From Alphaproteobacteria bacterium (lineage in GTDB: Bacteria > Pseudomonadota > Alphaproteobacteria > UBA8366 > GCA-2717185), in NCBI GenBank assembly GCA_028822585.1, contig JAPKDL010000018.1, positions 1 through 40,658 of the forward strand: a stretch of 40,658 nt of DNA, read 5' to 3'. Within the stretch, counting starts at the first letter, position 1. Each line of letters starts with the position of its first letter. Below the pieces are notes generated by a model. The model did not search any database and had not been told where the DNA came from. It saw only the letters and a list, made by a program, of their open reading frames with translations. This document shows positions 15,917 to 19,294 of the stretch, piece after piece. The translations under genes were made by a program, and so were the position numbers.

Positions 15917-16726
15917 CTAACGGCCCAATGGTTCGTACCAATCGGCGGGAAAATTGGCGGCCTCACGCGCATCTGTATTAAAGGGGGGTTTCAGCGGGCT
16001 CTTAAAATAACGTTTTACCATTTCCTGATACGCTGCCTTCGGTGCCAAACTCCGCTGTTCCGCAACCCATAAAAACCACCGCATCCCCGTTGCTACATGG
16101 CCGATTTCATCGTGGTATATAATTGCCAGGACGGCGGCGCTGTCGGTGTCGTCCACACTTTCAAGTTTGGCGATCATGCCCGGCGTCACATCCAACCCGC
16201 GTGCCTCCAGTAACAGCGGGGCGATGGCTAGCCGGGCTATCAAATCACCACAGGTTTGGTCCGCAGCATCCCACAAGCCGTCATGAACGGGAAAATCGCC
16301 ATACCTGGTGCCGAATCCCGCCAATCGTTCCGATAGAAGTTGGAAATGTTTGGCCTCTTCCCCGGCGACTCCGATCCAATCATCGTAAAACGCGACGGGT
16401 AGGTCATCATCGGTGAACCGCGCGATGATGTCCCACGCCAAATCGATGGCGTTCAGTTCGATATGTGCAATGGCGTGCAGCAGCGCGATACGCCCGGCCG
16501 TCCCTTTGTTGATACGACGGCGCGGCATGTCGCGCGGTGCTCTGAGCGCCGGCTGCGCGGCGCGCGGTGGTCGCAACGGTGGCTGAGAGCGGCCCGTGTC
16601 TTGAATGTCGCCCGCTCGCCAGGCGGCGACGACCTCATGGGTCAACCGCGCCTTATCCGCCGCCTGCGGTGTGTTGAGAATATTGCAGGCGGCGCGGGCG
16701 AGTGTGATGCCGTCGAAATTAGGAAT
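15917..16726 (-). CDS. ferritin-like DUF455 family protein, apparent AUU start
   Basis: A predicted four-helix ferritin-like protein with two ExxH-type motifs (GEEAKHF and HDEIGHV) and further Glu residues in helices (AHIELNAIDLA, LLLEARGLD), the pattern of a diiron site. The substrate is unknown. The first canonical start in frame is TTG at 16645, but the 27 codons before it (GITLARAACNILNTPQAADK) match the N-terminal helix I expect in this family. Upstream of that TTG the frame has no ATG, GTG or TTG before a TAG. The best start is the ATT at 16726, which lies across the stop of the FAA hydrolase gene and has GATGG 6 nt upstream. It is the last gene of the glnE-bcp unit. The family call is strong; the start is inferred. 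Confidence 0.8.
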   Translation of the reverse strand: MPNFDGITLARAACNILNTPQAADKARLTHEVVAAWRAGDIQDTGRSQPPLRPPRAAQPALRAPRDMPRRRINKGTAGRIALLHAIAHIELNAIDLAWDIIARFTDDDLPVAFYDDWIGVAGEEAKHFQLLSERLAGFGTRYGDFPVHDGLWDAADQTCGDLIARLAIAPLLLEARGLDVTPGMIAKLESVDDTDSAAVLAIIYHDEIGHVATGMRWFLWVAEQRSLAPKAAYQEMVKRYFKSPLKPPFNTDAREAANFPADWYEPLGR

Positions 16727-17564
16727 CGGCGACCATCTTTTGTTTCTGGACGCCCATGCCGTCGACGCCTAACCGCACGGTGTCGCCAGGTTTCAAGAAG
16801 ACTCGGGGTTTTTGCCCCATGCCTACGCCCGGGGGCGTTCCCGTCGCCACGACATCTCCCGGTTGTAACGACATGAACTTGCTTAGATAGCTGATTAGAT
16901 ATTGTACGCCATAGACCATCGTATTGGTGTTGCCATTCTGGTAGCGATGACCGTTGACTTCGGTCCATAACCCTAACGCCTGCGGGTCGGCCACTTCGTC
17001 CGCTGTCACTAGCCAAGGGCCAAGCGGACCGAAGGTGTCGCAGCTTTTACCTTTGGTCCATTGGCCTTCCATTCGGATTTGAAAATTTCGTTCGGACACG
17101 TCGTTGACGACGCAATAACCGGCCACATGGGACATCGCATCGGCTTCGTTGATATATTTGCCGCCCTTGCCGATAACGAAGCCAAGTTCGACCTCCCAGT
17201 CGGTTTGCTCGGAATCACGAGGGATGATCACGTCATCATTAGGGCCCTGGATGGCGCTGTTGGCTTTCATGAACAAGATTGGTTCCGAGGGCACTTCACC
17301 GCCGGTTTCGGCGGCGTGATCGGAATAGTTCAATCCAATGCACATGAATTTTCCAACATTTCCGACACACGCGCCGATGCGAGGCGACCCATCGACCTTG
17401 GGCAGGGAGGCGGGGTCGATCGCTTTCAATTTTTCAATTGAATCCGGTAATAAGGCGTCGCCGCTAATGTCGGCGATAGCTCCGGAAAGATCTCGAATGG
17501 CACCATCGGCGTCCAATACACCAGGCTTTTCGGCACCTGCCGGTCCATAACGTAAAAGTTTCAT
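16719..17564 (-). CDS. fumarylacetoacetate hydrolase family protein
   Basis: The 281-residue protein has the FAH fold, used for hydrolysis, isomerisation or decarboxylation of 2-keto or acylpyruvate compounds. Metal ligands are visible as Glu124 and Glu126 in DWEVELGFVIG and Asp155 in VVNDVSERN. SGSS-type variation is absent; the substrate loop reads QWTKGKSCDTFGPLGPWLV and the C-terminal TGTPPGVGMG is typical of the 2-hydroxyhepta-2,4-diene-1,7-dioate isomerase group. The substrate cannot be fixed. The upstream aminotransferase ends 93 nt before its start, and its own stop overlaps the likely start of the DUF455 gene. Confidence 0.9.
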   Translation of the reverse strand: MKLLRYGPAGAEKPGVLDADGAIRDLSGAIADISGDALLPDSIEKLKAIDPASLPKVDGSPRIGACVGNVGKFMCIGLNYSDHAAETGGEVPSEPILFMKANSAIQGPNDDVIIPRDSEQTDWEVELGFVIGKGGKYINEADAMSHVAGYCVVNDVSERNFQIRMEGQWTKGKSCDTFGPLGPWLVTADEVADPQALGLWTEVNGHRYQNGNTNTMVYGVQYLISYLSKFMSLQPGDVVATGTPPGVGMGQKPRVFLKPGDTVRLGVDGMGVQKQKMVADS

Positions 17565-17657
17565 TGTGTTTCTAACTCCCTGTTTTCGCGCTGTGCGCGT
17601 GTCAAACCCCGATCCAAGTAGGTGTATTGCAAGCGCCGTGAAGATTCAATCGGGACA

Positions 17658-18830
17658 CTAGCGAAGCATTGCTGCGATTCGATCCATCGCCGTGCGCAGT
17701 AATTTCGGTTCCTGGGCGAAGCAGAGGCGTATCCAGCCCTCACTATCGTCGCCAAACGAGATTCCCGGCGCCACGCCGACACGCGCTTCGCGCACCAAAC
17801 GTTTCGCCAACGCCATGGAGTCGGTTTCGCCTTCGATGGCGAAAAAGGCGTAGAAGGCGGCCTCCGGCGGCGAAATTTGAATTCGGTTCACGCGGCCCAG
17901 AATATCACACACGATGTCACGACCGGCTTCGCAATAATCGCGGAATTCATCAACGAAGGGCTCGCATTGTTCGATGGCGGCAAGACCGCCGGCTTGAACA
18001 AAGGCGGGCGAGTTGCTGTTGGTCAGCTGTACGATGGAGCCCAAAGTTTTGAAAACGGACGGCGGCGCGGTCAACCAACCAAGGCGCCAGCCGGTCATGG
18101 CCCAGCTTTTGGAAAAGCTATTAACTGCAAAGACAGCGTCCTCGGGATCGCAAATATCCAGAAACGATGGCGATGTCGGTCGGTCATAAACGATCCGCTT
18201 GTAGACTTCGTCAGCGATCACCCAAATGCCACGGTCGCGCGCGAAATCCAGAATTGCCTGCTGTTCCACCGTCGAACACATCCATCCTGTCGGATTGTTG
18301 GGGGAGTTTATGAACAGCGCCTTGGTGCGGCCATCGCAGGCGTCAAACAATTGATCCAGATCTAGTCGCCAACGCCCATTGTTGCCATAGGCTAAAGCGA
18401 CACGGCGCGGCTCCGCGCCCATGATCGTGACCGCGCCATCGGCATTCGGCCATACCGGCGTGACCAAAACTACGTTGTCCCCGGCGTCGCAAATAGTTTG
18501 TAACGCGACATGTAATGCGGTCATGCCGGACGCGGTGACGGTGATGCGGTCTGGAAGAATGTCCCGCCCATGCAAAACACTGTCATAGACCGCGATGGCG
18601 TTGCGCAATTCATCGACGCCACTTTCCGCCTGATAGAAGGTATCGCCCCTGTTGAGAGAGTCAATCAATGCACGGCGCGGAATATCCGGTGTCGGTAAGT
18701 CGGATTCGCCATACCATAGCGGGATAATATCGTCGAATTGCGCACCGTAGGTCGAGATGTCGGTAATGCCTTGAGGGCGCAACGTTGCGATGGAATTCCG
18801 AATTGGTGCAGGGCGAATGTGGGCCTTCAT
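17658..18830 (-). CDS. class I/II pyridoxal-phosphate aminotransferase
   Basis: This 390-residue PLP enzyme shows NPTG at 179-182, ADEVYKR at 207-213 and Lys241 in NSFSKSWAMTGWRLGW. It is clearly a different paralogue from the aminotransferase at 6523. The start MKAHIRPAP at 18830 is chosen because its ATG overlaps the TGA of bcp (ATGA), a common coupling arrangement; the frame upstream lies within bcp. The amino donor is not predictable. It belongs to the glnE-bcp-aminotransferase-FAH-DUF455 unit. Confidence 0.92.
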   Translation of the reverse strand: MKAHIRPAPIRNSIATLRPQGITDISTYGAQFDDIIPLWYGESDLPTPDIPRRALIDSLNRGDTFYQAESGVDELRNAIAVYDSVLHGRDILPDRITVTASGMTALHVALQTICDAGDNVVLVTPVWPNADGAVTIMGAEPRRVALAYGNNGRWRLDLDQLFDACDGRTKALFINSPNNPTGWMCSTVEQQAILDFARDRGIWVIADEVYKRIVYDRPTSPSFLDICDPEDAVFAVNSFSKSWAMTGWRLGWLTAPPSVFKTLGSIVQLTNSNSPAFVQAGGLAAIEQCEPFVDEFRDYCEAGRDIVCDILGRVNRIQISPPEAAFYAFFAIEGETDSMALAKRLVREARVGVAPGISFGDDSEGWIRLCFAQEPKLLRTAMDRIAAMLR

Positions 18831-19294
18831 GATAAGGCTTTCGCGGCGTCGAGCACCTTTTCCACATGGTTTTTGACACGAACCTTGCGCCAAACGTCCT
18901 GTATTACGCCTAACTTGTCGATGAGGAACGTGCTGCGCTCGATCCCCATGTATTTCCGGCCATACAGATTTTTTTCAACCCAAACGCCGAAGGCGTCACA
19001 AATTTCACCAGATTGGTCGGAAACCAACGTGAAATTCAGGTCGTGCTTGGCTATGAAATTATCATGCTTTTTTACGGTGTCTTTCGAAACGCCGATAACC
19101 CGCGCTCCGGCTTCGGCAAAGTCCTTTTTTAGATCTCGAAAGGCGATAGCTTCGGTGGTGCAGCCCGGTGTGTTGTCCTTGGGATAGAAATAAACGATGA
19201 CGGCACCGCCTTTCATCGCCGATAGCGTCGCGGTTCCCGCACTGTCGGTGGGGGCGGTGAAATCAGGTGCGGCGTCGCCTTGGGTTAAATTCAT
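18827..19294 (-). CDS. bcp: thioredoxin-dependent peroxiredoxin, Bcp/PrxQ type
   Basis: The 155-residue peroxidase reduces hydroperoxides in the cytoplasm. The peroxidatic Cys45 lies in KDNTPGCTTEA. The usual resolving Cys five residues later is Ile50, so this enzyme must resolve through Cys99 (GEICDAFGVW), another protein or a small thiol; variants without that Cys are known in the family. The start overlaps the end of glnE by 32 nt, and the stop overlaps the following aminotransferase start (ATGA). A partner thioredoxin is not in the window. Confidence 0.94.
   Translation of the reverse strand: MNLTQGDAAPDFTAPTDSAGTATLSAMKGGAVIVYFYPKDNTPGCTTEAIAFRDLKKDFAEAGARVIGVSKDTVKKHDNFIAKHDLNFTLVSDQSGEICDAFGVWVEKNLYGRKYMGIERSTFLIDKLGVIQDVWRKVRVKNHVEKVLDAAKALS

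Follow-up and report, generated by a model that had tools for sequence, protein, structure and literature searches.

Where does translation of a conserved gene begin when no ATG, GTG or TTG stands at the head of its reading frame? This question is raised by a DUF455 gene in the window, which is the complete stretch of 40,658 nucleotides analysed here (contig JAPKDL010000018.1 of assembly GCA_028822585.1, Alphaproteobacteria bacterium). The gene lies behind a gene of the FAH family, and the features needed at the outset are the following.

15917 to 16726, minus strand: DUF455 (PF04305) coding frame as read from an ATT, with its TAG stop at the low end (PF04305, E=2e-97).
16719 to 17564, minus strand: FAH-family gene, immediately upstream and the overlapping partner (PF01557, E=2.2e-71).
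16769 to 16771, minus strand: in-frame TAG in the sequence, which blocks starts farther upstream.
16643 to 16645, minus strand: TTG, the first canonical start and codon 28 when the ATT is codon 1; from the sequence, PF04305 and the structural model, the protein would be truncated if it were used.

The TAG at 16771-16769 stands 15 codons above the ATT at 16726-16724 in the DUF455 frame, and from this TAG down to the TTG at 16645 the window sequence holds no ATG, GTG or TTG in that frame, which is what the original prediction had described, with correct coordinates. The lack of a canonical start able to serve the conserved N-terminus of DUF455 is thereby confirmed as a real observation in the window species; its congeners carry canonical codons at unshared positions.

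The N-terminus in question is probably a regular part of the protein. Read from the ATT, residues 19-265 match positions 2-247 of the 247 in the PF04305 profile with 326 bits (E=2e-97), the curated cut-off being 34.3 bits, and with this match over the full model the window gene is like the rest of the PF04305/DUF455 family. An AlphaFold2 model of the protein from the ATT, made with 20 sequences, has a mean pLDDT of 93.2 and a pTM of 0.91, and predicts helices at residues 9-17 and 22-37, with a block of pLDDT 96-97 over residues 11-40. The original prediction had also looked to the relatives for conservation of the N-terminal residues, and this is found: between the window species (L001) and its nearest relative (L002) codons 7-27 are identical at 19 of 21 residues, and five of the seven base differences are at third positions. 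Taken from the Pfam match, the predicted helices and this conservation, the DUF455 protein probably needs the stretch before TTG 16645.

As to the nature of the protein, the residues E124, H127, E174, E207 and H210 are invariant among the 20 sequences and to our eye are reminiscent of the ExxH pairs in ferritin-like diiron proteins, so the conserved acidic and histidine residues suggest a ferritin-like diiron site. A Foldseek search with the model ranked bacterioferritins first, weakly (best E 0.2) and with no match at E 0.001, and a sequence search of known structures gave no solved relative at E up to 1. We take DUF455 to be a ferritin-like protein, from its sequence and its predicted fold, and assign no activity to it.

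The ATT is placed across the end of the FAH gene, and two further features describe the junction.

16724 to 16726, minus strand: ATT, the most likely start (codon 1), overlapping the Asp and Ser codons of FAH; present in L001, L002 and L003.
16719 to 16726, minus strand: overlap of the DUF455 start with the FAH stop, 8 nt, ATTCCTAA in the window and ATTCCTGA and ATTCCTAG in the two congeners.

The FAH reading frame runs from 17564 to 16719 and ends with the TAA at 16721-16719, and the ATT begins 5 nt before that stop. FAH also stands directly before DUF455 in both congeners (tblastn identity 92.5% in L002 and 87.9% in L003), and the ATT is found at the same place in all three species of the genus that were compared, where the 3' end of FAH reads GTC GCC GAT TCC and then TAA, TGA or TAG. 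Both congeners have canonical codons in reach, namely a GTG at codon -13 in L002, which has no canonical codon over 40 codons from the ATT on, and a TTG at each of codons -9 and +9 in L003, so that the strict lack holds only for the window species. Since these codons are at unshared positions, the ATT is the sole candidate common to the three species.

The surroundings of the ATT are unusually constant. When FAH is compared in the three species, passing over Met, Trp and codons with a changed residue, 103 of the 232 comparable codons are synonymously invariant, and the longest invariant run comprises the 7 codons at the very end of the gene (CAG, CAA, AAG, GTC, GCC, GAT, TCC), the next longest being 4. 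By our own arithmetic a 7-codon invariant run at a named FAH position has a chance of about 0.003. Because the bases of the ATT encode Asp-Ser of FAH, the conservation of the ATT among these three species is partly explained by FAH, whose own coding needs could suffice to preserve it. The FAH Asp codon is GAC in four junctions of sister genera that were read by eye (L004, L005, L008 and L010). In L010, of genus g2, a GCG also replaces the GTG of L005 and L008, and the nearest canonical codon is a TTG inside the end of FAH, which makes it another weakened start.

A GATGG does lie 6 nt before the ATT, as the original prediction had said, but the role of a Shine-Dalgarno sequence that it had been given was rejected, since the congeners have GCTGG and GTTGG and the predicted pairing is weak. 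Pairing with the anti-Shine-Dalgarno before the ATT is calculated at -3.5 kcal/mol in L001 and L002, and the -5.6 kcal/mol in L003 is found at a distance of 14 nt. The DUF455 ATT thus has no strong Shine-Dalgarno at proper spacing of the kind found in infC. What it has is the overlap with the final codons of FAH that had been claimed for it, 8 nt long if the ATT is the start, and such an overlap is what a reinitiation site would have.

With a confidence somewhat above even, and arguing from the sequences, we favour the reading that DUF455 has a weak start, reached by termination-reinitiation; in the window this would be AUU 16726 inside the overlap AUUCCUAA. DUF455 would be second in a pair of genes that overlap stop to start, and would be translated mainly by ribosomes that have just completed the gene before it, FAH or bcp, and restart on the nearest acceptable codon. 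Since such a ribosome would already be positioned, the start codon could be weak and might tolerate the near-cognate codons CUG, AUA and AUU. In the window genus, where the upstream neighbour is FAH and not bcp, initiation would most likely take place on AUU 16726, while the apparent starts in other lineages would be UUG, GUG or CUG (in NTGA, with the bcp stop) or AUA. The output of DUF455 would on this account be low and sensitive to IF3.

That reinitiation makes use of the AUU and not of an AUC is likewise what we infer, and here the strongest rival has to be weighed. It concerns a second near-cognate codon, overlooked in the original prediction.

16706 to 16708, minus strand: ATC (codon 7), the rival near-cognate start, from alignment with the starts of a sister genus.

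The proposal of an AUU start across the FAH stop stands in so far as the ATT is present in three of three species in an invariant context, but ATC 16708 could serve instead, also by reinitiation, 10 nt after the FAH stop and with an ATA (L002) and the TTG of codon 9 (L003) as its counterparts. We regard this as possible, though clearly the less probable choice. In sister genus g3 the position of the ATC is taken by an ATG (L004 and L006) or a TTG (L009), L001 and L002 show clear coding constraint from codon 7 onward, and the last canonical codon not beyond codon 10 falls at +1 to +9 in 73 of 91 orthologues. Against it, codon 7 is GAA in L003, and in L005 and L008 of genus g2 it is Ile (ATC or ATT) and follows an ATG or GTG, which makes codon 7 an ordinary residue as well; neither has ATC 16708 a Shine-Dalgarno sequence. 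Residues of codons 3-6 agree in only 2 of 12 pairwise comparisons among the three species, so that constraint can be seen only from codon 7. Relatives with a TTG start also conserve the equivalent stretch poorly (15 of 50), however, and the weak constraint at codons 3-6 is therefore no argument against the ATT. Codon-position statistics on these codons do not choose between ATT and ATC, the stretch being too short.

Other explanations are less probable still. It is improbable that translation starts at TTG 16645 and that the protein is simply shorter in the window species. This TTG is the sole canonical start in range, but it was rejected because domain and helices would be lost: 9 residues of the PF04305 match, the whole of helix 9-17 and 6 residues of helix 22-37, in a high-confidence part of the prediction. 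The nearest relative L002 has no canonical codon at the position of the TTG, and codons 7-27 are conserved nonetheless. Nor do the orthologues begin at the residue encoded by TTG 16645, an alternative that had been named beforehand, since in 141 of 153 a canonical start falls within codons -14 to +10.

Quite unlikely, too, is initiation at some other non-canonical codon between the TAG and helix 1, for instance the ACG at codon -11, or a start shared out among several weak ones; codons of this kind are present in the 15-codon stretch above the ATT, but none upstream of it is common to the three species. We attach as little weight to the idea that a normal start was lost through an error of sequencing or assembly, or through a mutation that recently inactivated it. 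The genome of the window is a draft in 265 contigs, and one base change would suffice. Against this, the genomes of two other species have the ATT there and no canonical start at a shared position, the DUF455 reading frame is intact, and other families again contain missing starts, with genome completeness reaching 100%. An error hiding an ATG or GTG, which the original prediction had held possible, was rejected on the strength of the identical ATT in these other genomes, as judged from assemblies. Very improbable indeed is a programmed +1 frameshift at the FAH stop that fuses FAH with DUF455, for although DUF455 is in the +1 frame of FAH and this frame is open across the stop, the fusion was rejected because the stop is TAA, TGA or TAG depending on which of the three species is read, no slippery motif being recognised, and because DUF455 lies directly behind bcp and not behind FAH in 90 of the 153 placed loci.

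Having argued for reinitiation on AUU 16726 in the window, we turn to DUF455 starts in the wider class. A total of 156 alphaproteobacterial loci were anchored by profile from their conserved part, of which 153 could be placed and 3 could not; 19 duplicate or fragment loci and 27 distant ones (L040-L066) were left out. From 97 genomes of the class with a match, 30 had a locus in the set already and 40 more were added, lower-scoring genomes being under-represented, and a few of L033-L039 may duplicate species of other genomes in the set. Within codons -14 to +10 an ATG was present in 77 of the 153 loci, only GTG or TTG in 64 and no canonical start in 12. Canonical starts only farther upstream were seen in L028, L114 and L204, which were not counted as near-cognate. 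In L186-L189 (G359, G354) and L185 (G146) DUF455 is fragmented or has in-frame stops, and these are decayed copies or assembly errors.

The bcp genes of the same 156 loci served as control. After removal of 40 loci without a bcp match, 26 with a late match, 3 at an edge and 2 with a weak match, 85 were usable, with 83 ATG, 2 GTG or TTG and none lacking a canonical start, whether the range was extended to +3 or to +10. This control replaced an earlier one with 69 usable loci (67 ATG, 2 GTG or TTG, 0 none), where the exclusions were 48 DUF455 matches that were late and, on the bcp side, 26 late matches, 3 at an edge and 2 weak. A nearby ATG is thus missing from 76 of 153 DUF455 genes and from 2 of 85 bcp genes. 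The p values from Fisher tests are about 3e-16 for “no ATG” and 0.005 for “none”, and they are only a guide because the tests ignore relatedness and three families were fully sampled after a case. As these families (f106, f108 and f64) were searched in full once a case had appeared, the frequency of missing starts is not an unbiased one. On a FastTree tree the cases are scattered and do not form one clade, several nodes being weakly supported, and nine cases require nine state changes in either direction. The missing start in the window is, to judge from these sequences, probably one instance of a tendency of the DUF455 family, with a near-cognate start used by reinitiation.

The commonest neighbour of DUF455 elsewhere is a peroxiredoxin gene, which in the window is found at some distance.

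18827 to 19294, minus strand: peroxiredoxin gene of the AhpC-TSA family (PF00578, E=7.9e-41), which we take to be bcp.

In the window (16719-19294) bcp is separated from DUF455 by an aminotransferase gene (PF00155) and by FAH. In three other members of the family, L005, L008 and L010, about 980 nt lie between the bcp stop and DUF455, which leaves room for FAH alone. In 90 of the 153 placed loci, the commonest arrangement, bcp is directly upstream with its stop within 62 nt. The two genes are in the register of a 4-nt overlap in 71 of these 90, with 30 expected for random frames, and 63 of the 71 (63 of 90) have an NTGA overlap, namely TTGA in 28, CTGA in 17, GTGA in 15 and ATGA in 3. Another canonical start is in range in 10 of the 17 CTGA loci and in none of the other 7, which are L096, L190 and L191 (f64), L111, L182 and L184 (genus g198) and L178 (f106). 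The overlapping codon is accordingly CTG in 7 of the 12 loci without a canonical start; another genus has an ATA.

The clearest sign of CTG use is a pair of sequences from genus g250, where L198 has CTA TGA (an ATGA overlap) and L191 has CTC TGA (a CTGA overlap), a synonymous difference in bcp, with the conserved helix about equally far from both overlaps. In genus g198 the CTGA is present in all 5 species for which the DUF455 N-terminus is available, L181 having an ATG as well and L183 a TTG farther on; the remaining four genomes in this genus yielded only DUF455 fragments (two) or no match (two). In genus g120 the only N-terminal start of L177 is an ATA directly after an in-frame TAA (ATG AGG CTT TAA ATA), with a GAGG six bases upstream. 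The same ATG AGG CTT TAA ATA is found in L176 together with a GTG inside the helix, while in L175, the third species, the overlap is TTGA and contains a TTG. The last codon of bcp in the overlaps is CTT in 25 cases, CTC in 13, CTG in 9 and CTA in 1. As CTT (8) and CTC (11) also prevail in pairs without overlap, we do not claim selection for weak codons at the wobble base of the terminal Leu.

We hold it to be an evenly balanced proposition, resting on these junctions, that the DUF455 family has been freed from the AUG/GUG/UUG rule and starts on whatever codon the last bases of the upstream gene give. If so, the AUU of the window would be one of several separate losses of a canonical start, and standard gene finders would truncate or mis-call such DUF455 starts, so that annotation hides the cases. 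Near-cognate starts recurring at overlaps would show that a ribosome which reinitiates is less exacting in its choice of start codon, and the ATGA and CTGA within one genus would offer a natural pair for gauging the importance of start-codon identity in reinitiation.

Near-cognate starts are known from infC, the gene of IF3, and from pcnB in E. coli. The DUF455 gene of the window is like these, and like the near-cognate genes of S. aureus, in having no usable AUG, GUG or UUG and an AUU in place that is present in the three species compared. The S. aureus starts in PMC13009471 are AUA in infC, AUA in ccpN and AUU in cvfC1; the same source puts them at about 10% of AUG in poor medium, with ccpN reaching up to 30% in rich medium, and describes strong, extended Shine-Dalgarno sequences for these genes. 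In the parts available of PMC6728339, PMC10666635 and PMC12548453, coupled pairs translated by termination-reinitiation have the same geometry as DUF455, which has NTGA with bcp and 8 nt with FAH, and spacings of -4, -1 and -8 nt are given as common short ones by the portions seen of PMC12548453 and PMC10666635. The coupled pairs in these excerpts have ATG or NTG starts, whereas TTG is a frequent start in DUF455, and several lineages apparently use CTG, ATA or ATT. Within the excerpt of PMC10666635 ATT occurs only as a possible explanation of -5 overlaps, and Hecht 2017 is quoted there for an AUU start at about 0.3% of AUG in E. coli. Raised IF3 inhibits non-canonical starts and reinitiation without a Shine-Dalgarno (PMC2268962). 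A literature search for an ATT start codon in alphaproteobacteria found none, the matches listed for DUF455 appear incidental from their listing, and those listed for non-canonical or CUG starts and coupling hold nothing on the DUF455 family in their titles and abstract openings.

A design like that of infC, which the original prediction had suggested, did not hold up, since infC of the window's family has an ATA behind an invariant AGGAGGAA (11 of 11 genomes) and the DUF455 site has no such motif. The S. aureus genes and the family's infC, with AGGAGGAA before the ATA, have a strong Shine-Dalgarno, while the DUF455 of the window has weak pairing and overlaps the upstream stop. Its near-cognate codon also varies by lineage (AUU, AUA, CUG), unlike that of infC-type genes. 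Across the 11 family genomes (L078-L088, L083 being the window's own) infC lacks a canonical start throughout and shows an unvarying AGGAGGAATCT-ATA, so that the ribosomes of the family very probably do initiate on AUA, and infC itself probably has, judging by this constancy, an AUA start with a strong Shine-Dalgarno sequence.
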